Assembly: GCF_011297335.1 (NCBI RefSeq)
Contig: NZ_JAAOTJ010000014.1
Coordinates: forward strand, 1 to 64,000
DNA length: 64,000 nt
DNA from: Catellatospora methionotrophica
Lineage (GTDB): Bacteria; Actinomycetota; Actinomycetes; Mycobacteriales; Micromonosporaceae
Direction of reading: 5' to 3'
Position numbers and translations under genes: made by a program. Below the pieces are notes generated by a model, which had not been told where the DNA came from, made no database searches, and saw only the letters and a program-made list of their open reading frames with translations. This document shows positions 2,780 to 29,707 of the stretch, in pieces (positions within the stretch are counted from its first letter, which is position 1; the number at the start of each line of letters is the position of its first letter).

Positions 2780-4294
2780 GTGCACCCCCCATCGGCACGT
2801 TTGCTGGCCCGCGCCCTGGTCGGGCTTCTCGCCCTGGCCTCGGTCGTCGTCGCCCCCACCGCGGCGTTCGCCGCGCCCAACTTCAAGGCCCCGTTCCCGT
2901 GCGGGCAGCGCTGGACCTACAGCCACCACAGTGCCGAGGTCCGCCAGGCCCTCGACTTCGTACGCGCCGACGGCGGCGTCACCGGCGGCACTCCGGTCAT
3001 GGCCTCCGCCGCCGGTACGGCATACCGGTTCTCGCAGCCCAGCGGGGCCGGGAACTACATCGCCATCGAGCACGGCGGCGGCTGGAAGACCTACTACTTC
3101 CACCTGACCTCCTACTCGGTGCCCGACGGCGCGGTCGTGCAGCAGGGCCAGCAGATCGGGATCACCGGCACGACCGGCAACTCGTCGGGCCCGCACATCC
3201 ACTACGAGCAGTTGCTCAACGGCGTCGGGCAGGTCATCGCCATCAACGGGGTGTCGCTGGCCCCGTATCCCGGCTCCTACAACCAGCGCTACCTGACCAG
3301 CGACAACTGCGGCGGCGCACCGGCGGGCGCGAAGTACTACGCGGGTTCGCCGACGGACTTCTCCGGTGACGGCAAGGACGACATCGTCGCGTTCACGCAC
3401 GGCACCCTGGCTGATGTGTACGTGTCGCCGTCGACGGGCAGTGGTTTCGCGGGCACGTCGGTGAAGTGGAACGACTTCTTCGCCCTGACCGGGGAGACGC
3501 CGCTGACCGGTGACTTCAACGGTGACGGCAAGGACGACATCGTCGCGTTCACCCACGGCACGACCGGCACGGCGGCAGGTGACGTGTACGTGGCGCTGTC
3601 CAACGGGTCGGGGTTCCTGGGGGCGTCGAAGTGGCATGACTGGTTCGCCCCTGGTGCGGAGGTCCCGGCGGTCGGTGACGTCAACGGTGACGGCAGGGAC
3701 GACATCGTGACGTTCACCCACGACACCAACGGTGACGTGTACGTGGCCCTGTCGAATGGTTCGTCGTTCGGGGCGGGCGTGAAGTGGCACGAGTTCTTCT
3801 CCCCGGCCAACGAGTTTCCGGCGCTGGGCGATGTCAACGGTGACGGTAAGGATGACCTGATCACGTTCACGCAGGGTCCGGCGAGTGCGGCGGATGTGAT
3901 CGTGGGTCTGTCGAACGGCAGCTCGTTCGGGCCGGGTCTGAAGTGGCACGACCTGTTCGCGGTCGGGGCGGAGCAGCCGCGGGTCGGTGACGTCAACGGT
4001 GACGGTAAGGACGACATCGTGACGTTCACGTGCAACGCCGACGCTGATGTGTATGCGGCGGTGTCGAACGGTTCGGCGTTCGTGGGTACGACGGTGAAGT
4101 GGAACGACTTCTTCTGTACGGCGGGGGAGTTCCCGTTCCTGGGTGACTTCAACGGTGACGGTAAGGACGACATCGTCGTGTTCACGAAGGGTTCGCTCAA
4201 CGACGTGTACGTGGGTCTGTCCACCGGGACCGGGTTCCTGGGCGGGGCGAAGTGGCACGACTTCTTCGGCCTCAACGGCGAGACGACGCTGTAA
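2780..4294 (+). CDS. Secreted M23 (LytM) peptidase with FG-GAP/VCBS repeats
   Basis: 504 aa from the GTG at 2780 (GAGGA seven bases upstream). A Sec signal peptide ends near AFA-A (residue 31). Residues about 35-170 form an M23 peptidase: HH at 49-50 with LDF (Asp59) and the metal-binding HIH at 139-141, so it probably cleaves peptidoglycan cross-links. Residues about 190-504 are tandem VCBS/FG-GAP units of roughly 50 aa, each with a DxNGDGxDD calcium loop and a KW[H/N]D/E motif (six KW copies). These repeats probably form a beta-propeller that binds wall or surface glycan. The same repeat occurs in the convergent GH172-like gene. It ends at a strong shared terminator. Confidence 0.85.
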   Translation: MHPPSARLLARALVGLLALASVVVAPTAAFAAPNFKAPFPCGQRWTYSHHSAEVRQALDFVRADGGVTGGTPVMASAAGTAYRFSQPSGAGNYIAIEHGGGWKTYYFHLTSYSVPDGAVVQQGQQIGITGTTGNSSGPHIHYEQLLNGVGQVIAINGVSLAPYPGSYNQRYLTSDNCGGAPAGAKYYAGSPTDFSGDGKDDIVAFTHGTLADVYVSPSTGSGFAGTSVKWNDFFALTGETPLTGDFNGDGKDDIVAFTHGTTGTAAGDVYVALSNGSGFLGASKWHDWFAPGAEVPAVGDVNGDGRDDIVTFTHDTNGDVYVALSNGSSFGAGVKWHEFFSPANEFPALGDVNGDGKDDLITFTQGPASAADVIVGLSNGSSFGPGLKWHDLFAVGAEQPRVGDVNGDGKDDIVTFTCNADADVYAAVSNGSAFVGTTVKWNDFFCTAGEFPFLGDFNGDGKDDIVVFTKGSLNDVYVGLSTGTGFLGGAKWHDFFGLNGETTL

Positions 4295-4310
4295 CCGCGA
4301 CGCATGAAGA

Positions 4311-4342
4311 AGGGCCGCCTCCGCACCACCGGAGGCGGCCCT
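4311..4342. terminator. Shared terminator between convergent VCBS-repeat genes
   Basis: Perfect 13-bp stem AGGGCCGCCTCCG (4311-4323) / CGGAGGCGGCCCT (4330-4342) with loop CACCAC. A-rich sequence on the left and T-rich on the right let it serve both the rightward M23 gene and the leftward GH172-like gene. Confidence 0.85.
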
Positions 4343-4353
4343 TCCGCTTTCGC

Positions 4354-7300
4354 TCAGGACAGGATCAGACCCGGCCTGGGCAGGTCGGTGGCCGTGGCGA
4401 AGCTGTCGTGCCACTTCCAGCCGTTCTGGACGAAGCGCCCACCATCGGACAGCGACACGTACACATCGGCAGCGCTGCCGCCGGTGTAGGTGACCACGTC
4501 GGCCCGGCCCTCGCCGTCGAAGTCGCCCACGCCGGGCGTCTCCGCGCCGATCGCGAAGTTGTCGTGCCACTTCCACCCGGTCTGCACGAACCGGCCGCCG
4601 TCGGACAGTGACACGAACACGTCCGCGGTGCTGCCCCGGCTGAACGAGACCACGTCGTCGCGCCCGTCGCCGTCGACGTCGGCCAGCGCGGGCAGGTCGG
4701 TGCCCGCCGCCACCTGGTCGTGCCACTTCCAGGCGTTCTGCACGAACCGGGTGCCGTCCGACAGCGCCACGAACGCGTCGGCCGCGCTGCCGCCGGTGAA
4801 CGTGACGATGTCGTCGCGCCCGTCGCCGTCGACGTCGCCGAGCACCGGTGTCTCGGTGCCGAACGCGAACGTCTCGTGCCACTTGACGCCCGGCCCGAAC
4901 CCGCTGCCGGTGGACAGGGCGACGTACACGTCGCCGGTCCCGCCGCGGGTGAACGTGACGATGTCGGCCCGGCCGTCGCCGTCGACGTCGCCGACCGCGG
5001 GGACCTCCGTGCCGACGGCGAAGAAGTCGTGCCACTTCGCGGCCGCCCCGAACGAGGACCCGTTCGACAGGGCCACGTACACGTCGGCGAGGTCGCCGCG
5101 GGTGAACGTGATCAGGTCGGCCCGGCCGTCGCCGTTGACGTCGCCGGTCATGGGGACCTCGCCGGGCAGGCCGAAGAAGTCGTGCCACTTGGCGTTGCCG
5201 GTGAACGCCGAGCCGCTGGACAGCGCGGTGAACACGTCGTTGGTGTCGGCTCGGGTGAATCGCAGCGCGTCGTCGCGGCCGTCGCCGTTGACGTCGGCGA
5301 CGGCCTTGACGCGGGTCGTCGCCGAGACCACCCCGGACGCGGGCCCGGCGTTGCCCGCCGCGTCGACCGCGACGACCCGGTAGTACCAGGCCTGCCTCGC
5401 GGGCAGCGGCCCGTGCCGGAACCCGGTCCCGGCCACCGTGCCCGCCAGGTTGGCGGCGGTGATCGCCACGTCGGAGCTGCGCGAGGCGTACACCCGGTAA
5501 CCGGCCACGCCGACGTCGTCGGTGGCGGCGGCCCAGCTCAGGGCGAGGGCGTGCACGCGGCCGCCGCCGAGCGCGAGCCCGCTCACCTGACCCGGCGCGA
5601 CCGTGTCGGCGAACGGGCTGACCACGCTGAGCGCCTCGTAACGGGACGCGGTCCAGGCCGGCGAACCGGCGACCGGGGTCAGCGTGACGGTGATCGCCGT
5701 CTTGCCCGCCGTCAGCGAGGCGGGCAGCGTGAACTCGTCGGCCAGCCACCGGTGTGTGCCGTTGCCCAGCGGCTGCAGCCAGGTCCCGGCCGACACGCCG
5801 TCGACCGTCACTGCCGCCTGCTGTCCGGGGGACTGCTGGTCGCCGGTGCGGCGCAGGCGTACACCCTGGTTGTCGGACGCGACCGCGAGCCGGAAGCCGA
5901 CCGCCGTCCCACCGGCCCGCACCTGCCCTGACACCGTTGTCGGATCGTCGCCTTCGAACGCCGAGACCAGCGCGTACTGCGACGCCCCACTGTCGGTCCA
6001 GGCGTGCGCGGACCGGCTGGCCGCGTCGCCTGTCACCAGTGTGTCGGTGCGCCGCGACGCGGCGCTGGTCTGCGTGTACAGGTATGCCGTCGAGCCGTAG
6101 TCGGCGGGCATGTCGTTGCCGGGCCCGTGCTCGATGCCGAACCGCAGCGCCGTGGTGTACGCGACCGCGTCGCCGATCAGCAGCCGGTATGCCCCGTCGC
6201 ACTCGTCGGCGCAGCCCGCCGCCCGGAACTGGTGGGCCGGATTGCCGGTGAACACCCCGCTGTACTCGCCCCGGTTGAAGTACCAGCCGGACTCGTAGAA
6301 GTCCTCGGTGCCGGTGCCGTACCACTGCGGGGTGGGCGAGCCGTCGACGTGGATACGCTCGTCGCCCTCCAGGTAGTTGCGGGTGTTGCCGCCGGTGATG
6401 TGCCCGCGCATGGTCTGGGTGACCCCGACCAGGCGGCCCCGGCCGGACTGGTCGGCCAGTGTCCAGTCCTGGCCCATGACGGTCTCGGCGCGTGCCGAGC
6501 GGGTGGTGAAGTAGCCCGCGTCGCCGGTGGCGGCCAGCAGGTCGGTCCACTGCGCTCCCGGCGCGGAGGTCACCTCGGCGCCGATCCCGGAGACGGTCTG
6601 CCCGGTGGTGTTGACCAGCTCGATCGTCGCGGTGCTGCGCAGCGGCATCGGCCACCAGGCGCTGTACCAGCCGCCCGCGGCGGTGTCCATCGCGAACATC
6701 AGTGAGCGCACGTGTTTCTCGGCCAGGCCCGAGCCGAAGAACTCGCCGATCGGCGAGTCGACGGTGCGCCGCCCGTCGAAGGTGATCCGCAGCCGCAGCC
6801 CGGCCAGCACCGCCGGGGTCGCCGACGCGTCGGGCACCCGCAGCCGCAGCGCCGTGATCAGCCGGGGGCCGGTCAGGTTCGCCACGGTGACCTGGCCGCC
6901 CGCCGGGGCCGACACGGTGGTGCTGCTGGTCGCCGCCCCGGTCTGGGTCGGTTTCGGATCGCGGGTGCCCGCGGCGCGCAGCAGCGTGATGACGTCGTTC
7001 GCCTTGTCCGCGGTGCTGAACGTGCTGATCCCGGCCGCGTCGGCGAACCTGCGGTAGCCCACGTGGTAGAAGAGCGGATTGTGCTGCGTCGTGATCTTCA
7101 TCGAGGTCCGGTACGGCATCGGCACCTTGACGGTGACCCCGCCGGAGGTCTGGTCGGCGTTGGTGACCAGGGGGAAGCTGAACGGCGCGCCGAGGTTGCC
7201 GTTGACCAGGTTCTGCAACCCGGTGTCCACGACGGTCACCCCGTCCAGTTCGATGCGGATCCAGCCGGTCGCCGTGACGTTGCCCTCGTCACGGGTGAAC

Positions 7301-22786: not shown

Positions 22787-25264
22787 ATGTCCGCACTGTC
22801 CCGCCGTACCGTGCTGCGCGCTGGCGCGGTCGGCGCCGCGGCCGCGGCTGTCTCCGGCAGCCTGCCCGCGTCGCCCGCCCACGCCGCCCGCACCGACATC
22901 GGCGTATCCGTGTACCCGTTCCCCCTCGGCGCGGTCACCCTGCTGTCCGGCCCGTTCCTGGCCAACACCGGCCGCACCCAGAGCTACCTGAGCTTCCTCG
23001 ACGCCGACCGGCTGCTGCACACGTTCCGCCTCAACTACGGCCTGTCCTCCTCGGCGACCGCGTGCGGCGGCTGGGAGTCGCCCACCACCGAGCTGCGCGG
23101 CCACTCGATGGGCCACGTGCTCACCGGCCTGGCCCAGGCGTACGCCAGCACCGGCACCGCCAGCTTCAAGACCAAGGGCGACTACCTCGTCGCGCAGCTG
23201 GCGATCTGCCAGGCCCGCGCGACGACGGCCGGGTACAACACCGGTTACCTGTCGGCGTACCCGGAGAGCTTCATCGACCGGGTCGAGGCGCGCCAGTCGG
23301 TGTGGGCGCCCTACTACACCCTCCACAAGATCATGGCCGGGCTGCTGGACATGCACCTGCTCGCCGGGAACGCGCAGGCGCTGACCGTGCTCACCGCGAT
23401 GGCGTCGTGGGTGAAATTCCGCAACGACCGGCTCACCCAGACCCAGCGGCAGAACATGCTCGACACCGAGTTCGGCGGCATGAACGAGGTGCTGACCAAC
23501 CTGTACCAGCTCAGCTCCAACACCGCGCACCTGACCGCCGCGCAGCACTTCGACCACGCCGAGGTCTTCGACCCCCTGGCCGCCAACACCGACGCGCTGA
23601 ACAACTACCACGCCAACACCCAGATCCCCAAGGCCCTCGGCGCGATCCGGGAATACCACGCCACCGGCACCACCCGCTACCTCGACATCGCCCGCAACTT
23701 CTGGGACATCGTGGTCAGCCGCCACACCTACGCCATCGGCGCCAACTCCAACGGCGAATACTTCAAGGCCCCGAACCGGATCGCCAGCGAGCTGTCCGAC
23801 AACACCGCCGAGTGCTGCAACACCTACAACATGCTCAAGCTGTCCCGGCAGCTGTTCTTCACCAACCCGGCCCGCGCCGACTACATGGACTACTACGAGA
23901 AGGCGCTCTACAACCACCTGCTCGGCGCGCAGGACCCGAACTCCTCGCACGGCTTCCACAGCTACTACATCCCGCTGCGCGCCGGCGGCATCAAGACCTA
24001 CAGCAACGACTACAGCAACTTCACCTGCTGCCACGGCACGGGCATGGAGACCAACACCAAGCTCGGCGACACCATCTACTTCCACTCCGGCGACAACCTG
24101 TACGTCAACCTGTTCATCGCCTCGCAGCTGAACTGGTCGGCCAAGGGCGTCACGATCCGGCAGGACACCACCTTCCCGGAGGCGGCGTCCAGCAGGCTGA
24201 CCATCACCGCGGGCTCGGGCACGTTCGCGATGCGGATCCGGGTGCCCGCCTGGGCCAGCGGCGCGACGATCCGGGTCAACGGCACCGTGCAGGGCGGGGT
24301 CACCCCCGGGTCGTACGCCGTGGTCAACCGCACCTGGGCGACCGGCGACGTCGTCGACGTCGCACTGCCGATGGCGCTGGTACGCGAGGCCACCCCGGAC
24401 AGCTCCACCACGCAGGCGGTCAAGTACGGCCCGATCGTGCTGGCCGGGGCGTACGGCAGCACCAACCTGTCCGCCCTGCCCACCCTCACCGCGTCCTCGA
24501 TCGCGGCGACGTCCACCCCGCTGCAGTTCACCGCGGCCGCGTCCACCGGCAACGTCATGCTGCTGCCGTTCTACAAGGTGCACGGCCAGCGCTACACCGT
24601 CTACTGGAACGTCACCACGACCAACCCGCTGCCCGCGTTCGTGTCGCACCACCTGTTCAACGAGACCTCGGGCACCTCGGCGGCCGACGCCACCGGCAAC
24701 GGCAAGACCGCCACCCTGGCCGGGGGAGCGACCTGGGTCGCCGGGCGCACCGGCAACGCGGTCAACCTCAGCGGCAGCTCGCAGTACGTGTCACTGCCGT
24801 CGGGCATCCTCGCCGGGGCCACCGCGTTCAGCATCGCCACCTGGGTACGGCTGGACGCCGTCACCAACTGGGCCCGGCTGTTCGACTTCGGCACCGGCAC
24901 CACCGCGAACATGTTCCTGGTTCCGGCCAGCAGCACCGGCACGGCCCGGTTCGCGATCACGTCGTCGGGGGCGGCCGGCGAGCAGCGGATCAACGCCCCG
25001 GCGGCGCTGCCCACCGGCGTGTGGACGCACGTCGCGGTCACCGTCGGCGGCGGCGTCGGCATCCTGTACGTCAACGGGGCCGAGGTGGCCCGCAACACGG
25101 CGATGACGCTGAGCCCGGCGTCGCTGGGCAGCACCACCCAGAACTGGATCGGCCGCTCGCAGTACGCCGACCCGTACCTGGACGGCGCGGTGGACTCGTT
25201 CCGTGTCTACAGCCGGGTGCTGACGGCGTCGGAGGTCAGCGGCTTCCACACGTCGGGCCTGTAA
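22787..25264 (+). CDS. Tat-exported GH127 beta-L-arabinofuranosidase with LamG domain
   Basis: 825 aa. The N-terminus is a Tat signal (SRRTVLRAG, residues 5-13). Residues about 45-640 match GH127 (DUF1680): the zinc/nucleophile cluster is present as AECC (Glu342, Cys343, Cys344) and TCCHG (Cys414, Cys415), equivalent to the Glu, Cys and nucleophile Cys of characterised beta-L-arabinofuranosidases. Residues about 640-825 form a LamG/concanavalin-like carbohydrate-binding domain. It should release L-arabinose from plant glycoprotein or arabinan side chains outside the cell. A perfect LacI-type palindrome upstream suggests sugar-controlled expression. It ends at a strong 12-bp terminator. Confidence 0.9.
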   Translation: MSALSRRTVLRAGAVGAAAAAVSGSLPASPAHAARTDIGVSVYPFPLGAVTLLSGPFLANTGRTQSYLSFLDADRLLHTFRLNYGLSSSATACGGWESPTTELRGHSMGHVLTGLAQAYASTGTASFKTKGDYLVAQLAICQARATTAGYNTGYLSAYPESFIDRVEARQSVWAPYYTLHKIMAGLLDMHLLAGNAQALTVLTAMASWVKFRNDRLTQTQRQNMLDTEFGGMNEVLTNLYQLSSNTAHLTAAQHFDHAEVFDPLAANTDALNNYHANTQIPKALGAIREYHATGTTRYLDIARNFWDIVVSRHTYAIGANSNGEYFKAPNRIASELSDNTAECCNTYNMLKLSRQLFFTNPARADYMDYYEKALYNHLLGAQDPNSSHGFHSYYIPLRAGGIKTYSNDYSNFTCCHGTGMETNTKLGDTIYFHSGDNLYVNLFIASQLNWSAKGVTIRQDTTFPEAASSRLTITAGSGTFAMRIRVPAWASGATIRVNGTVQGGVTPGSYAVVNRTWATGDVVDVALPMALVREATPDSSTTQAVKYGPIVLAGAYGSTNLSALPTLTASSIAATSTPLQFTAAASTGNVMLLPFYKVHGQRYTVYWNVTTTNPLPAFVSHHLFNETSGTSAADATGNGKTATLAGGATWVAGRTGNAVNLSGSSQYVSLPSGILAGATAFSIATWVRLDAVTNWARLFDFGTGTTANMFLVPASSTGTARFAITSSGAAGEQRINAPAALPTGVWTHVAVTVGGGVGILYVNGAEVARNTAMTLSPASLGSTTQNWIGRSQYADPYLDGAVDSFRVYSRVLTASEVSGFHTSGL

Positions 25265-25272
25265 CCGGTGAC

Positions 25273-25306
25273 CGGCCGCCGGCGGGGGAGACCACGCCGG
25301 CGGCCG
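25273..25306. terminator. Terminator between GH127 and the HTH-membrane gene
   Basis: Perfect 12-bp stem CGGCCGCCGGCG (25273-25284) / CGCCGGCGGCCG (25295-25306) with a 10-nt loop, between convergent genes. There is no T-run, as is common in actinobacteria. Confidence 0.75.
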
Positions 25307-25357
25307 TGGTGCGTCACGGCACCGCCGACGCCGCCCACCGCAGCCACGCGTGACCGG

Positions 25358-27280
25358 TCATGGCGGCTGTCGGCGCGCGGCCACCGGCTTCGGCGGGACC
25401 GCGCCGCGGGCCGGGCGCCGGGGCACCGTGGCCGCCTGCGCGCGTTTCCAGGCGCGCAGGTCGGCCCGGTCGTTTCGGTCGGCATACCGGTCGGCCAGCA
25501 GCAGCCCCGCGAACAGCAGGACCATCACGACCAGTGTGACGGCCCCGATCAGGGTCGCATTGCTCGGGTGGGTCAAGGCCCGGGCGACTGTGCCGACTCC
25601 GGTCGGCGTTCGCCACGTGAAGGCCGCGGGGGCGGAGGTGGCAGCGTCGACCGGGGTGAGGTCGGGCACGGTCATCGCCGTCGCGGCAGTCAGCACCTGC
25701 GGCGTGGGCACGGTGGCCGAGGCGGTGCCGGGCCAGGCCAGTACGACCGTCGACGCCAGCCATAGCGCGCCGAGCAGCACCATGACGAACACCAGCAGTT
25801 TCAGGGCGGGCCAGCCGGTGATGGCCTGGTGGGGCTGCCCTGCCCAGTCCTCGCCGTCGGTCCATACGATCTGTCGATCGGCGTCCGGGCTCGCGGGGGC
25901 GGGACGGCGCAGCGCGGGCGTGGTGCGGGGCTCGTGCCTTCGGTGCCGCGGGCCTCTGCGGCGGCCGGTCACCACCGCGTAGGCGGGCAGATCCGGTTGC
26001 CTGGTCCGGGCCGGTACGGGCAGCCGAAAAGCGTCGTCGGCGGCGAGCGTGAAGGGCGCCCGTCCGCTCGGGATCCCGAAGATCCGCCCCAGCCGTGACG
26101 GCAGCGCTTCCCGCGCCGATAGCCGGGGCCGTTCCCGGTATGCCGGTGACCCCGGCCGGTTCGGCCAGGGGTAGCGGTGACCGTCGACCCCCGCACGGCG
26201 ACGTCCCCCCGGGTGCGGGGGCATCACCGGTGCCGGTCGCGCCGCAGGTATCCGCGGCGTCGAAGGATCGGCACCAGCAGCGGGCTGGATGTCGCTGCGG
26301 CGCAGACCGCCCGACGGTGCCGCGAGCATCGCCACGCTGACGGCGCAGCGGCCGATGTACCTGGTCCGCTCGGCTTCCGCGGGACGCAGCTGCCAACCGC
26401 CGGACGGCTCCAGCCACTCACGGGTGGGGGCGGGTTCCTGCGGCAGATAGCGTGGCAGCGCGGCGACCGGCGGCGGCATGGCGTCGGAGAGCGTCCACGG
26501 CGTCGCCGGGTCCGGCGATCCGGGACCGCCACGTGACCGCTGCCCGGTCCGCCGTCGCTGCGGCAGGCCGCTGCGCGGGTTGACCACGGCAGCCGGGTAG
26601 GTCGCTGCGGCGGGGACGGGCGTCACCGGCGGCGGAAGCCGCCGCTGCGCGGTCACGGCGCGGTGGACCCGGATGTACGCGTGCCTCCAGTCCTCGAACT
26701 CGTCGTTGGGGACCTCGCAGACGGTCAGGAAGATCCCTACCGAGGTCCACTTGGGCAGGTGTGGGTTGTTGCGCTTGAGAAGGTCGCCGACCGTGCTCGC
26801 GGGCAGCTTCTGACCGGCGGCGGCGGCCATCGCCTGGAGCTTGCGGCGCGACGGGCGGCCTACCGCGATGTGCGCCTCTACCAGCGCACGTTGCAGGTCC
26901 TGCGGGGTCTGGACACGCCGCGGGTTCGGCCGGGCGGCCTTGCGCAGCGGGTTGACCGGTATGGGCATGATCCGCGCCGCGGCCAGCCTGCGCTGGTCGG
27001 ACTTGAACTGGACGGCGTCGTCGAGCGCCGTCCTCACCTGGGTCAGGTAGGGGTCGCTCGCACGCCCGCAGCCGCGCAGCAATGCCTGGCAGGTCGTCCA
27101 GGTGGGCACCCGGCGGCCGCTCATGGCGTTGGAGAGCGTCGAGGCACTGCAGAGACCGCTTTTGGCCAGGGCCCGCAGATTGGGCTGACCCGCCCCGTGC
27201 CAGATCTCGCGCAGCAGTTGCGCGAGATCCGGCAGGGGGCCGGTCAGCTCTGGCGGGATCGGAGCCAGAGTCCGTGGCAT
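25358..27280 (-). CDS. Membrane-anchored regulator with two XRE-like HTH domains
   Basis: 640 aa. Residues about 15-75 form one XRE-like HTH (LRALAKSGLCSASTLSNAMS), and residues about 128-200 a second (RKLQAMAAAAGQKLPASTVGDLLKR). Both end in the WTxxxxxL(x)xC pattern seen in actinobacterial XRE proteins. Residues about 215-500 are a proline/arginine-rich low-complexity linker. Two membrane helices follow (about 505-530 and 580-605), ending with a basic tail. A DNA-binding N-terminus held at the membrane suggests a one-component signal transducer or chromosome tether; no family member with a known role is recognised. It lies 17 bp after a small membrane-protein gene, forming an operon. Confidence 0.75.
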   Translation of the reverse strand: MPRTLAPIPPELTGPLPDLAQLLREIWHGAGQPNLRALAKSGLCSASTLSNAMSGRRVPTWTTCQALLRGCGRASDPYLTQVRTALDDAVQFKSDQRRLAAARIMPIPVNPLRKAARPNPRRVQTPQDLQRALVEAHIAVGRPSRRKLQAMAAAAGQKLPASTVGDLLKRNNPHLPKWTSVGIFLTVCEVPNDEFEDWRHAYIRVHRAVTAQRRLPPPVTPVPAAATYPAAVVNPRSGLPQRRRTGQRSRGGPGSPDPATPWTLSDAMPPPVAALPRYLPQEPAPTREWLEPSGGWQLRPAEAERTRYIGRCAVSVAMLAAPSGGLRRSDIQPAAGADPSTPRIPAARPAPVMPPHPGGRRRAGVDGHRYPWPNRPGSPAYRERPRLSAREALPSRLGRIFGIPSGRAPFTLAADDAFRLPVPARTRQPDLPAYAVVTGRRRGPRHRRHEPRTTPALRRPAPASPDADRQIVWTDGEDWAGQPHQAITGWPALKLLVFVMVLLGALWLASTVVLAWPGTASATVPTPQVLTAATAMTVPDLTPVDAATSAPAAFTWRTPTGVGTVARALTHPSNATLIGAVTLVVMVLLFAGLLLADRYADRNDRADLRAWKRAQAATVPRRPARGAVPPKPVAARRQPP

Positions 27281-27297
27281 GTCGCTCGTCGCCCCCG

Positions 27298-27513
27298 CTA
27301 CTTCCGGGTCAGCCGGATCGCCGCGGCGATCACGGCGACGCCGCCGGTGAGCGCGAGGTAGGGATCGCAGTCGAGCGAAACCAGCCCGAGCACGAACGCC
27401 ACGGTGACGACGACGACCCAGAGGCGGGTCATCAGCACCGCCCGGTCGACCCCCGGCGGGGCCGGGGGCTGTTCGGGCAGTGTGGAGCGGACCCGCTGTG
27501 CACTCTTGCGCAT
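27298..27513 (-). CDS. Small two-helix membrane protein
   Basis: 71 aa. A basic, proline-containing N-terminus (residues 1-28) precedes two hydrophobic helices (about 29-45 and 50-67). AGGAAG lies seven bases before the ATG. It is 17 bp upstream of the double-HTH membrane protein and is probably co-transcribed, perhaps as its membrane partner or inhibitor. The operon begins in an interval full of stem-loops. Confidence 0.7.
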   Translation of the reverse strand: MRKSAQRVRSTLPEQPPAPPGVDRAVLMTRLWVVVVTVAFVLGLVSLDCDPYLALTGGVAVIAAAIRLTRK

Positions 27514-27535
27514 CTCATCACTTCCTGTGAGGGGT

Positions 27536-27616
27536 GGGCCCCGCCTGTCGGCGGGGCCCGTGTCCTTGTCCGGACCCGAGACCGCGTGTTCGCGGCCCGG
27601 TGTCCGCCGGGCCGCG
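27536..27616. terminator. Tandem GC-rich hairpins near the start of the HTH-membrane operon
   Basis: Two perfect 10-bp stems: GGGCCCCGCC/GGCGGGGCCC (27536-27559) and CGCGGCCCGG/CCGGGCCGCG (27591-27616). They would be in the 5' leader of the leftward operon if it starts further right, or act as insulators. Confidence 0.45.
27560..27576 (+). repeat. 17-bp direct repeat, copy 1
   Basis: GTGTCCTTGTCCGGACC. The identical sequence occurs at 28097-28113, both times next to hairpins. Confidence 0.7.
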
Positions 27617-28096
27617 GGATCTCATGTGGAATGTTGGAGGGGAAACTTCCACAACACAACTGAACCTTGTTCGCGATCTGGCGACCGTGGAACCGGTATC
27701 CGCTGGAATCGATGACCTTGCTATGTCAACGCAGGCCGGAGCGGTTTTGATCGACGTCTGTCCGATCGATGATCGGCTGGGCGATGTTCACCGGAACATG
27801 ACCGGCGGCCGGGTCTGTGCAACACGGTGACCGGCTCCCGATTGCCGGATCCGCGCGCCGTGTTGCACAAACTCCGAACAATCGGCGCAGCCGTGCTGAC
27901 TCAACGTGATACCTGCAGCTCACCGATGAGTGCCGCCGGAGCTCGATCTTTCCCTGCCTGCCCTGGCGCACCACCGGGCCGCACCTTCGCCCGCGGTGCG
28001 GCCCGACGCGAACAACAGGCCCTTCCGATCGAAGTGGATCTCCCGCATAGTAGGAGTGCGCTGAGCTACCTCATCCGAGGGCGATCCGCAGGGATC

Positions 28097-28113
28097 GTGT
28101 CCTTGTCCGGACC
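28097..28113 (+). repeat. 17-bp direct repeat, copy 2
   Basis: GTGTCCTTGTCCGGACC, identical to 27560-27576, followed by an 8-bp and an 11-bp stem-loop. Confidence 0.7.
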
Positions 28114-28159
28114 ACACCCAGCGTCGGCCGGGACCCTATGTCCGTAGACCCGGCCGGGC

Positions 28160-28186
28160 GGGGTGGGCCGTCACGCGGCCCACCCC
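28160..28186. terminator. Strong hairpin at right end of the gene-free interval
   Basis: GGGGTGGGCCG (28160-28170) / CGGCCCACCCC (28176-28186), perfect 11-bp stem, loop TCACG. It lacks a T-run. Confidence 0.55.
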
Positions 28187-28242
28187 GACCCCCCGTCAGC
28201 GTGCGTGGCCAGCGGTTCTGAAGATCTGTCAGGCGTCGGGCG

Positions 28243-28248
28243 TAGCGT
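28243..28248 (+). promoter_or_regulatory. -10 element of leaderless gene at 28257
   Basis: TAGCGT, eight bases before the ATG, with no Shine-Dalgarno. Confidence 0.4.
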
Positions 28249-28256
28249 GATGTCCT

Positions 28257-28988
28257 ATGCGGACCCCTCCTCTCCGCGGCCGCCGGACCCTTACCGCCGT
28301 CGGCCGAGCGCCGGTGCACCTGTGTGGCACCTGGCTCGCGATCCGTACCGGCGAGCAGGAGTCGGTGCTGGTGGAGCTCGGCTTGTCCGACCCGGTGCCG
28401 GTCACGATCGGGCAGGGCGAGGCCGCCTGGAATCGCGACCACCACTCCTGGGACCGCGACCACCAGGACCGGCCCGCACGGGTGTACGTCTCGCCGGTGA
28501 CCGACGGCTGGACCCTGGTGTTCGGCGACCTGCCCGGCTCGGCCCCACCCGCCGCAGGCTCGTGGGCGCGCGATGTACAGGCGTTGTGCGCGCGCCTCAG
28601 CGCCCGGTTCGGTGCGGCCCACCTCTACGGCATGAGCTGCGGCGGCCCTTGGACGATGTGGTGCCTGGCCGAGGCGGGCACCGTCCGGCGCTACTACGAC
28701 GCGCAGACGGGCGAGCGGCTCGGGTCCCACCCCGCCGAGGACGGCTACCGGCTGCCCGACGAGGACGAGGGCCTGCCGCCGGACGCGTACGACGGGATCG
28801 ACGCGGACGACATCGACGCCGTCATGGCGCGGCGGGCCGAGCTGTACGAGCGGCTGGCGCTGCCCGAGGTCTGCTACGCCACCGACATCGCCGCACTGAC
28901 GTCGGTCGACCCGAGCACGTTCGGCCCGCACACCCGCGTGTCCGGCCAGGGCGTGCTGGCACTGACCGCCCACGGTCGCCGACAGTGA
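28257..28988 (+). CDS. Protein of unknown function, soluble, acidic C-terminus
   Basis: 243 aa. No signal peptide or membrane helix. Features include WNRDHHSWDRDHQD (residues about 60-75), GMSCGGPWTMWCLAEAGTVRRYY (which reads like the sheet of a small alpha/beta domain) and a long acidic stretch (LPDEDEGLPPDAYDGIDADDIDA). No family is recognised. It lies 65 bp before another unknown gene in the same direction. The pair sits next to the stem-loop-rich interval, and small unknown pairs of this size are sometimes immunity or contact-system proteins; that is speculation. Confidence 0.65.
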   Translation: MRTPPLRGRRTLTAVGRAPVHLCGTWLAIRTGEQESVLVELGLSDPVPVTIGQGEAAWNRDHHSWDRDHQDRPARVYVSPVTDGWTLVFGDLPGSAPPAAGSWARDVQALCARLSARFGAAHLYGMSCGGPWTMWCLAEAGTVRRYYDAQTGERLGSHPAEDGYRLPDEDEGLPPDAYDGIDADDIDAVMARRAELYERLALPEVCYATDIAALTSVDPSTFGPHTRVSGQGVLALTAHGRRQ

Positions 28989-29039
28989 TCGGACCCACCC
29001 CGCCCGCGTGGCCGACGAGTACGGGCGGCCCGGCCCGTG

Positions 29040-29045
29040 TACCGT
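29040..29045 (+). promoter_or_regulatory. -10 element of leaderless gene at 29054
   Basis: TACCGT, eight bases before the GTG at 29054. Confidence 0.4.
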
Positions 29046-29053
29046 CTCCGCCC

Positions 29054-29707
29054 GTGATCACGTCCGACGAGGTGCTGGCGCAGTTCGACCGTGCCGCGAA
29101 GCGGTTCGACTTCCCGGACCCCGAGAACGGCTACTACTACGCGATCGACAGCCGCCTGCACGCGTTCCGCGACGCGACCCGCTGGGCTCTGGTCGTCGAA
29201 CTCGTCGGCTACAGCCCCCGCGCCGGCAACGTCCTGGACGTGCTGCACTGCTTCGGCAACTGCCTGACCGAGGGCGAACCCGGCTACGGCGAGGGCGACT
29301 TCCTGGCCCGCGTCGACAACATGTACCAGCTCGAACACCACGCCGAGCCCGAGCGGCTGCGCGGCGGACGGCCACCGGTCGTGGTCCGCGGGCAGGCGCT
29401 GGACGTCGACGCCGTCGAGGGCGAGCGGCTGGAGGACGTGTTCCGGCGTCTCGTGCCCGAGCATCGCGACCTGCTGCTGGCCGACGAGGTCGAGTTGCGC
29501 CACCGGCTGCCCGCCGACCTGCCGCGCGTGCTGGTGCTGGAGCAGTGGTGGCACCGCGACCCCGACCGCTTCGACCAGCTCCCCAGCGAAACCGAGACGT
29601 TCCAGCAGCTGGCGCAGGTGCTCACGACCGGCGACGTGGCCGCGTACCAGCCCACGCACGCACCGAACACGCACTGGTCGTACTGGCCGGAGTCCGGCTC
29701 GCTGTGA
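29054..29707 (+). CDS. Conserved protein of unknown function
   Basis: 217 aa from the GTG at 29054 (VITSDEVLAQF), chosen because TACCGT precedes it and the upstream extension is low-complexity proline. The sequence is soluble, acidic and aromatic-rich: ENGYYYAIDSRLHAFRD, WALVVELVGYSPRAGN, LHCFGNCL and VLEQWWHRDPDRF are the recognisable landmarks. I recall similar uncharacterised proteins in actinobacteria but cannot name the family with confidence. It follows the 28257 gene and precedes the MFS gene, separated from it by a 15-bp palindrome. Confidence 0.7.
   Translation: MITSDEVLAQFDRAAKRFDFPDPENGYYYAIDSRLHAFRDATRWALVVELVGYSPRAGNVLDVLHCFGNCLTEGEPGYGEGDFLARVDNMYQLEHHAEPERLRGGRPPVVVRGQALDVDAVEGERLEDVFRRLVPEHRDLLLADEVELRHRLPADLPRVLVLEQWWHRDPDRFDQLPSETETFQQLAQVLTTGDVAAYQPTHAPNTHWSYWPESGSL

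Follow-up and report, generated by a model that had tools for sequence, protein, structure and literature searches.

The window analyzed here is a 64,000-nucleotide stretch of Catellatospora methionotrophica DNA, and its most conspicuous noncoding segment is a 743-bp interval at positions 27514–28256. A preliminary description had singled out this interval as gene-free and packed with perfect stem-loops, and both observations were borne out. The nearest credible genes are a minus-strand ORF at 27298–27513 and a plus-strand gene at 28257–28988. When 171 segments of 743 bp were stepped over the 64 kb and perfect stems of at least 10 bp with loops of 3–12 nt were counted, the interval held four (27536–27559, 27591–27616, 27975–28005, and 28159–28187), against a mean of 0.18 per segment. 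The sole segment with four stems started at 27455 and spanned most of the interval, the next-ranked ones (three and two stems) also overlapped it, and all others had at most one. The earlier count of five perfect 10–12-bp stems holds if a 12-bp dyad with a 30-nt spacer, TGTGCAACACGG / CCGTGTTGCACA (27816–27827 / 27858–27869), is included, whereas four are found with loops of 3–12 nt. Its figure of nine inverted repeats was not reproduced as such, with looser settings giving 19 pairs.

The most informative feature, missed in that description, is an 18-nt exact direct repeat at 27559–27576 and 28096–28113. Around it, the interval contains two copies of one unit, 537 bp apart, each made of a hairpin with the loop CGGACA, 24–25 nt, and GGTCCGGACAAGGACACG (box Y). 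Box Y is read on the minus strand, and the CGGACA hairpin precedes each copy in that orientation. A further GC hairpin adjoins each unit. In the operon-proximal unit B, box Y (27559–27576, minus strand) folds by itself as a GTCC-GGACAA-GGAC hairpin. The unit B hairpin proper, located by the stem scan and loop comparison (27591–27616, minus strand), has a 10-bp stem, with an outer stem at 27578–27583 / 27618–27623. Box Y is separated from the small-ORF ribosome-binding site by a GC hairpin with a 10-bp perfect stem (27536–27559, minus strand) that is terminator-like, without a T run; a similar one is present in genome G009 (L053, 5431–5458). Read along the minus strand, the leader thus runs from the hairpin (27616–27591) through the box (27576–27559) and the GC hairpin (27559–27536) to the start codon (27513–27511).

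The distal unit A was read on the plus strand, where it comprises the complement of box Y (28096–28113), a hairpin (28125–28156) whose loop TGTCCG is the complement of the unit B loop, and a 12-bp hairpin (28159–28187) without a T run that is probably a small-RNA terminator and has a counterpart in nearly all other loci. Box Y and the loop are complementary in sequence between the units if unit A is read in this way. Upstream lies a candidate promoter (TTCCGA, 17 nt, CATAGT; 28023–28051, plus strand), a weak match read from the sequence, and GCATAGT occurs at the equivalent place in G009. From this candidate promoter and the terminator hairpin, the ends of the predicted small RNA would fall at 28058–28190 on the plus strand. 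Neither a sigma-70 promoter scan nor a simple scan for terminators with a T tail returned anything in 27300–28400.

Downstream of the leader, the first operon gene (27298–27513, minus strand) encodes a predicted small membrane protein of 71 aa with two hydrophobic segments by hydropathy. Small hydrophobic ORFs were similarly placed in the other 22 loci compared. As annotated or read here, these proteins span 58–114 aa, with at least one hydrophobic segment above threshold in 23 of 23 and two or more in 21. No Pfam family scored above cut-off for the seven small proteins scanned, so none matched the Fst/Ldr peptides. The second gene (25358–27280, minus strand) encodes a 640-aa double-HTH protein with a Pfam HTH_31 match at residues 34–73 (E 5e-5, 23.9 bits, under the curated cut-off of 27); the plasmid members of pFP1 and S. 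venezuelae score above the cut-off. AlphaFold2 models of residues 1–230 showed two five-helix bundles, the best model having a mean pLDDT of 70 and a pTM of 0.39 and the other four mean pLDDT values of 45–58. The best PDB matches of the modeled region in Foldseek were XRE regulators, at E 0.08 or worse. With modest confidence, the protein is therefore modeled as two tandem five-helix HTH domains. NCBIfam and PADLOC profile scans and phage records gave no match, and a PHROGs profile scan gave weak regulator and unknown-family matches only. Of 61 genomes searched at the protein level, 17 gave matches; the only close one outside the genome itself was in G009, whose double-HTH protein matched at 48% over residues 1–222. 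Whole-protein and alignment scans of genome contigs found 0 and 1 locus, respectively.

BLASTN against five same-genus genomes placed the double-HTH gene, the small hydrophobic ORF, and the interval in an insertion of about 2.9 kb (about 25268–28203). In these relatives, a match to the glycoside hydrolase (to 25263–25278) is directly joined to a match from 28204–28218; the hydrolase gene of the window ends at 25264. Absence of the insertion was scored in the five same-genus genomes, out of 10, that aligned there. The segment at 28204–28256, upstream of the plus-strand gene 28257–28988, is kept in the five relatives and lies outside the module. When relatives were searched with the DNA, the 3′ flank was matched in five same-genus genomes; elsewhere, the search gave three matches, all short and weak. 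The earlier suggestion that the interval is the remains of a small mobile element was thus right in part: about 2.9 kb is absent in five relatives and homologous modules sit on plasmids, but the two genes of the insert matched no transposase or recombinase families. The gene pair at 28257–29707 (a 243-aa protein without a Pfam family and a DUF7003 protein) is conserved in five same-genus genomes, outside the module.

The paired arrangement recurs beyond this genome. GTCCGGACAAGGAC was present in 16 of 354 Micromonosporaceae genomes and occurred twice only in the window genome and in G009, spaced by 537 and 540 bp, respectively, and upstream of the same two-gene operon in both. In a third genome, G191, two copies of TCCAGGTCAACGGAC spaced by 510 precede a small hydrophobic ORF and a double-HTH gene. 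A search for relatives of the double-HTH protein at E 0.01 returned 60 plasmid records; with the pFP1 protein as the query, the number at E 1e-10 was 77. We compared 30 gene-free regions, namely, 27 plasmid loci (of 28 fetched), the window, G009, and G191. Inspection showed both a common loop and a common box in 21 of them, four of which (pFRL3, two S. anulatus plasmids, and S. virginiae) were added to an initial 17. The weak members of this group are Sviet, where the two units have five loop letters in common; G009, where the distal hairpin with the common loop stands 56 nt from Y instead of about 25; and pFRL3, with a box of just 9 nt and a proximal hairpin absent from the minimum-energy fold. 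One region, on a Nonomuraea plasmid, has a box pair without a loop, and its pair is within chance (6 of 25 shuffles); eight have no convincing pair. Misses at the plasmid loci L121, L129, and L132 carry little weight because their small ORF and HTH gene are unannotated and where the gene-free region ends was a guess. Of the 30 regions, 11 lay above the 99% point of 750 shuffles on box score alone, and the putative membership of the remaining regions leans on the shared motif and loop rather than on the box score. Across loci, the units are 286–541 bp apart, each with separate hairpins, and the loop-to-box spacing is 23–39 in unit A and 14–29 in unit B (G009 aside).

Within a locus, the loop is identical in both units, while the stems differ between them. 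Between loci, the loop itself changes (CTGCAA, CGCCAA, CGTCAA, CGGCAA, CTGGCA, CTGCCA, CGGACA, and TGCCAC). In a blind test for a common 5–7-mer with stems on either side, run on the 75 nt that precede each of the two boxes, the loop was recovered in 14 of 18 loci, 11 of the 18 reaching p 0.03 or below; the misses were G009, Nonomuraea, Slav, and Sviet. The summed score was 65, compared with at most 29 in 300 shuffled sets. Homologous loci also showed the compensatory changes that the preliminary description had proposed to look for: 16 of 20 consensus pairs carried a pair-keeping double change in at least one of 18 plasmid unit A copies. Its suggestion of a structured RNA is accordingly supported by invariant-loop hairpins with covarying stems, present in two units and recurring in homologous loci. 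Its alternative of a regulatory array for the HTH protein does not describe the shared units, which are unlike an HTH operator array because their stems vary freely while their loops stay fixed. Judged on the aligned units, such variation fits an RNA hairpin (or single-stranded DNA), unlike a duplex operator. HTH operators elsewhere in the interval are possible. A known RNA family was rejected, as Rfam 15 gave no match at gathering score in 27000–28600 (seven sub-threshold matches) or in 14 related loci. A loop-box pseudoknot within one unit was likewise discarded; it fits CGGACA/GTCCG in the window and, roughly, the TTGGAG-type boxes, but on inspection fails in Sacid, Slav, and Kpap.

As an independent test, the covariance model R1 was built from 18 plasmid distal units (unit A) alone. 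At a threshold of E 1e-4, R1 had matches in 21 of the 150 genomes searched from one genus. This genus is probably Streptomyces, as suggested by two HTH genes in the matched loci that are 81–83% identical to that of pFP1. Twenty of the loci were fetched. None was identical to the training set, the closest agreeing with its nearest training sequence at 89% of positions, and 12 had under 50% of positions in common with the nearest one (length-weighted identity). In 16 of 20, the box and loop recurred in a matching unit B (15 at a Y score of at least 11.5, and L148 at 10), and a small hydrophobic ORF lay directly past unit B in 14 of the 15 loci scoring at least 11.5; in L147, unit B was present with no small ORF in the stretch examined. 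The flank of 16 of the 20 held a double-HTH gene, divergent from the R1 match in all 16. The misfits were L140, L156, and L158, with neither unit B nor the HTH gene, and L155, with the HTH gene but no clear unit B. In L140 (G732:C1:21476–21587 and three more), four strong R1 matches lie symmetrically near both chromosome ends, probably in terminal inverted repeats, and the match without a proximal unit may be an orphan small RNA. A strong match of the small-RNA model was also seen in L138, an S. coelicoflavus plasmid (2973–3087, E 2e-16); a further TTGGAG box lies 368 bp off, with no annotated small ORF or HTH gene directly past that box.

With default filters, R1 left unit A of the window, of G009, and of G191 undetected. 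The best matches in the window were two at 4259–4402 (23 bits, E 0.003), an unrelated place. With filters off, predicted unit A scored 4.7 bits (terminator hairpin, plus strand), and the maximum in the interval was 12.7 bits on the plus strand at hairpin 27975–28005 (hairpin part only). Since R1 does not detect the window copy, its membership rests on layout, loop, box, and operon, and the window, G009, and G191 form either a separate branch or a look-alike.

The strand on which unit A would be transcribed was judged from several features. A strong GC hairpin lies past the distal hairpin, away from the operon, in nearly all of 32 loci, the exceptions being L143, where it is weak, and NBC1520, where one further on was picked. 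T runs of at least 3 follow the terminator stem in 7 of 32 loci in the direction away from the operon and in 0 of 32 in the other direction; the longer T run points away in 15 loci versus 4 the other way, with 13 ties. This set took in just 11 of the 20 new R1 loci. Nine of 17 plasmids carry TTGATGC and an ACGATCC-like box 49–50 nt apart upstream of unit A, a pattern framed after looking. On the strand that reads away from the operon, the fold of the unit A hairpin is the better one in 14 of 17 cases. Unit B hairpins fold better on the leader strand in 7 of 17 and on the other strand in 10, while their mean energy favors the leader strand. An excess of G·U-compatible differences in Y in the first set (11 to 2 for the model, or 20 to 7 with spurious pairs included) was not replicated in the new R1 loci (7 to 7), and this asymmetry was dropped as proof of strand. 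RNAduplex energies were unusable, being swamped by GC-rich mispairing.

We consider it probable that the interval forms the RNA half of a regulatory module that is mobile, with a divergent small RNA pairing with the operon leader. Transcription of identical DNA units in opposite directions would give complementary RNAs. On the plus strand, a small RNA from about 28058–28190 would carry the box Y complement, the TGTCCG-loop hairpin, and the terminator hairpin. On the minus strand, the operon leader would present the CGGACA-loop hairpin, box Y, and the GC hairpin just before the start site. The two would meet by loop-loop kissing and an 18-nt duplex at box Y, and this pairing would lower expression of the small membrane protein and the double-HTH protein. 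Complementarity of the A and B RNAs under this model explains why loop and box are the same within a locus yet drift between loci. The paired units, the same loops on differing stems, the covariation, and the recurrence at homologous operons are seen directly in the DNA; from them, we infer transcription of both strands, pairing in the cell, and repression. Toxicity of the membrane protein and a role of the module in addiction are no more than guesses.

The chances seem about even that these loci form a family of RNA-controlled mobile modules on actinobacterial plasmids and in chromosomal insertions, where a coevolving loop and box (about 9–21 nt) would give each locus a private RNA-RNA address controlling a new small membrane protein family and a double-HTH regulator. 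Since each plasmid has its own address, the module could, besides acting in addiction, mark plasmids for incompatibility or exclusion. Among the matches listed in a search of open-access literature (titles and abstract openings; subscription papers scarcely covered), no description of such an RNA-controlled module was found. Under the model, a collection of stem-loops becomes an RNA-RNA circuit open to experiment, of which nature supplies many variants, each marked by a loop and box of its own; compensatory swaps between these variants could directly probe antisense-pair specificity. It also offers a testable function for a recurring, functionally unannotated plasmid gene pair of Streptomyces and relatives.

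Two alternatives dispense with antisense RNA. Ordinary terminators of the flanking genes are a very improbable source of the stems. The hairpins at 28159–28187 and 27536–27559 are indeed terminators or terminator-like, probably, and to this extent the concern raised in the preliminary description was sound; under the proposed model, however, they would belong to RNAs inside the module rather than to the flanking genes alone. The hydrolase gene of the relatives ends in a hairpin at the junction, but the window hydrolase also has its own hairpin directly past its stop, the terminator scan found none, and the exact repeat pair, the common loops, and their recurrence are left unaccounted for. It is less far-fetched, though still improbable, that both units are sites of one protein, such as the double-HTH protein, on folded RNA or DNA and form the ends of a loop or nucleoprotein complex. 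In its favor are the direct repetition of the units in the DNA, with loop and box unchanged, the DNA-binding protein encoded in the operon, and the operator-like TTGTTCGCG repeats of the interval. Against this, the stems of A and B differ freely yet stay paired, which is not the pattern of a duplex-DNA operator; between loci, loop and box change jointly; the loop-to-box spacing is unequal between A and B; and a terminator-like hairpin lies past unit A on the opposite strand.

Other readings concern what the proposed RNA circuit would serve. FinP/traJ is a model for small-RNA tuning in the control of plasmid transfer. Control of plasmid transfer, spread, or exclusion in this manner, by tuning of the membrane protein and the regulator and with the chromosomal copies as relics, is a tentative possibility. 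Several of the operons, one of them without a box pair, have MobF relaxase or replication-relaxation genes nearby, but 36 of 60 carriers were typed non-mobilizable, and the window copy stands alone among metabolic genes. A type I toxin-antitoxin system, a stronger form of the preferred explanation in which the small membrane protein would be the toxin and unit A the antitoxin RNA, is doubtful too, and the transfer, spread, or exclusion reading is nearly as likely. The layout resembles tisB/istR, shoB/ohsC, zor/orz, and dinQ/agrB (PMC4147584), and the module is frequent on plasmids. However, its proteins are of 58–114 aa, compared with 29 aa for TisB and 33 aa for Fst (PMC4147584, PMC7472228), and a regulator gene follows the small protein gene. 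The S. venezuelae plasmid that carries the module, taken as pSVJI1 by strain and plasmid size, was cured without an obvious phenotype (PMC8788739), which argues against strong addiction.

Known systems share parts of this design. In the E. coli divergent type I loci tisB/istR-1, shoB/ohsC, zor/orz, and dinQ/agrB, short complementarity of at least 18 nt (21 nt for IstR-1) links the small RNA to the long 5′ leader at a distance from the start codon (PMC4147584). Like these, the module would have a small RNA gene that points away from the gene of a small hydrophobic protein, with short leader complementarity. In sequence, the predicted small RNA is complementary to the leader, and its predicted target is a small hydrophobic membrane protein, longer than the classical toxins. 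The terminator and the upstream boxes point to divergence, and the 16 double-HTH genes were divergent from their R1 match, with the strand read from sequence alone. Unlike the tisB/istR kind, the module has a proposed second, loop-loop contact, proteins of 58–114 aa, most with two hydrophobic segments, and a double-HTH gene that follows, and it occurs in Actinomycetes. The par locus of pAD1 (Fst) has direct repeats transcribed from opposite strands, with loop-loop kissing followed by a second duplex (PMC7472228). The module would likewise use direct DNA repeats to give two complementary RNAs, with kissing and a second duplex. The par promoters converge on a shared bidirectional terminator, whereas the units of the module appear to diverge; in the loci compared, units 286–541 bp apart with separate hairpins do not match the par arrangement. 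By profile, and by fold at weak E-values, the second protein of the operon belongs with the XRE / HTH_31 regulators of Streptomyces plasmids, from which the operon differs in its two tandem HTH domains, small hydrophobic partner, and paired-unit leader.

An iteron origin was also considered. At the iteron locus of pWTY27, a long inverted repeat is the target of RepA, and the locus has 7–8-bp iterons in a 300-bp origin and a primase/polymerase gene (PMC3583192). That locus is similarly a noncoding Streptomyces-plasmid region with inverted repeats beside a two-gene operon, but, unlike the module, it is described without paired units. An iteron origin was rejected for the interval, where no tandem array was found, and the module of the window carries no Rep-like gene. 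Recombination sites were rejected as well: they would agree with the identical central loops but not with the variable arms, and the window module is without an integrase.

Several elements of the interval are left unexplained by the proposed model, namely, the 11-bp perfect hairpin 27975–28005 from the stem scan, a counterpart of which was not recognized in G009; the dyad at 27816–27869, a possible operator; and the TTGTTCGCG pair. The exact-copy count found TTGTTCGCG only twice in the 64-kb window, in opposite orientation and both inside the interval, once upstream of unit B (27667–27675, plus strand) and once just ahead of the candidate promoter of the small RNA (28007–28015, minus strand). 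The two operator-like copies may serve as operators for the HTH protein. G009 carries four TTGTTCRCR copies at the place matching this pair, and at L053 4600–4780 its module directly adjoins the apparent last CRISPR repeats of an array that is type I-E-like by eye.
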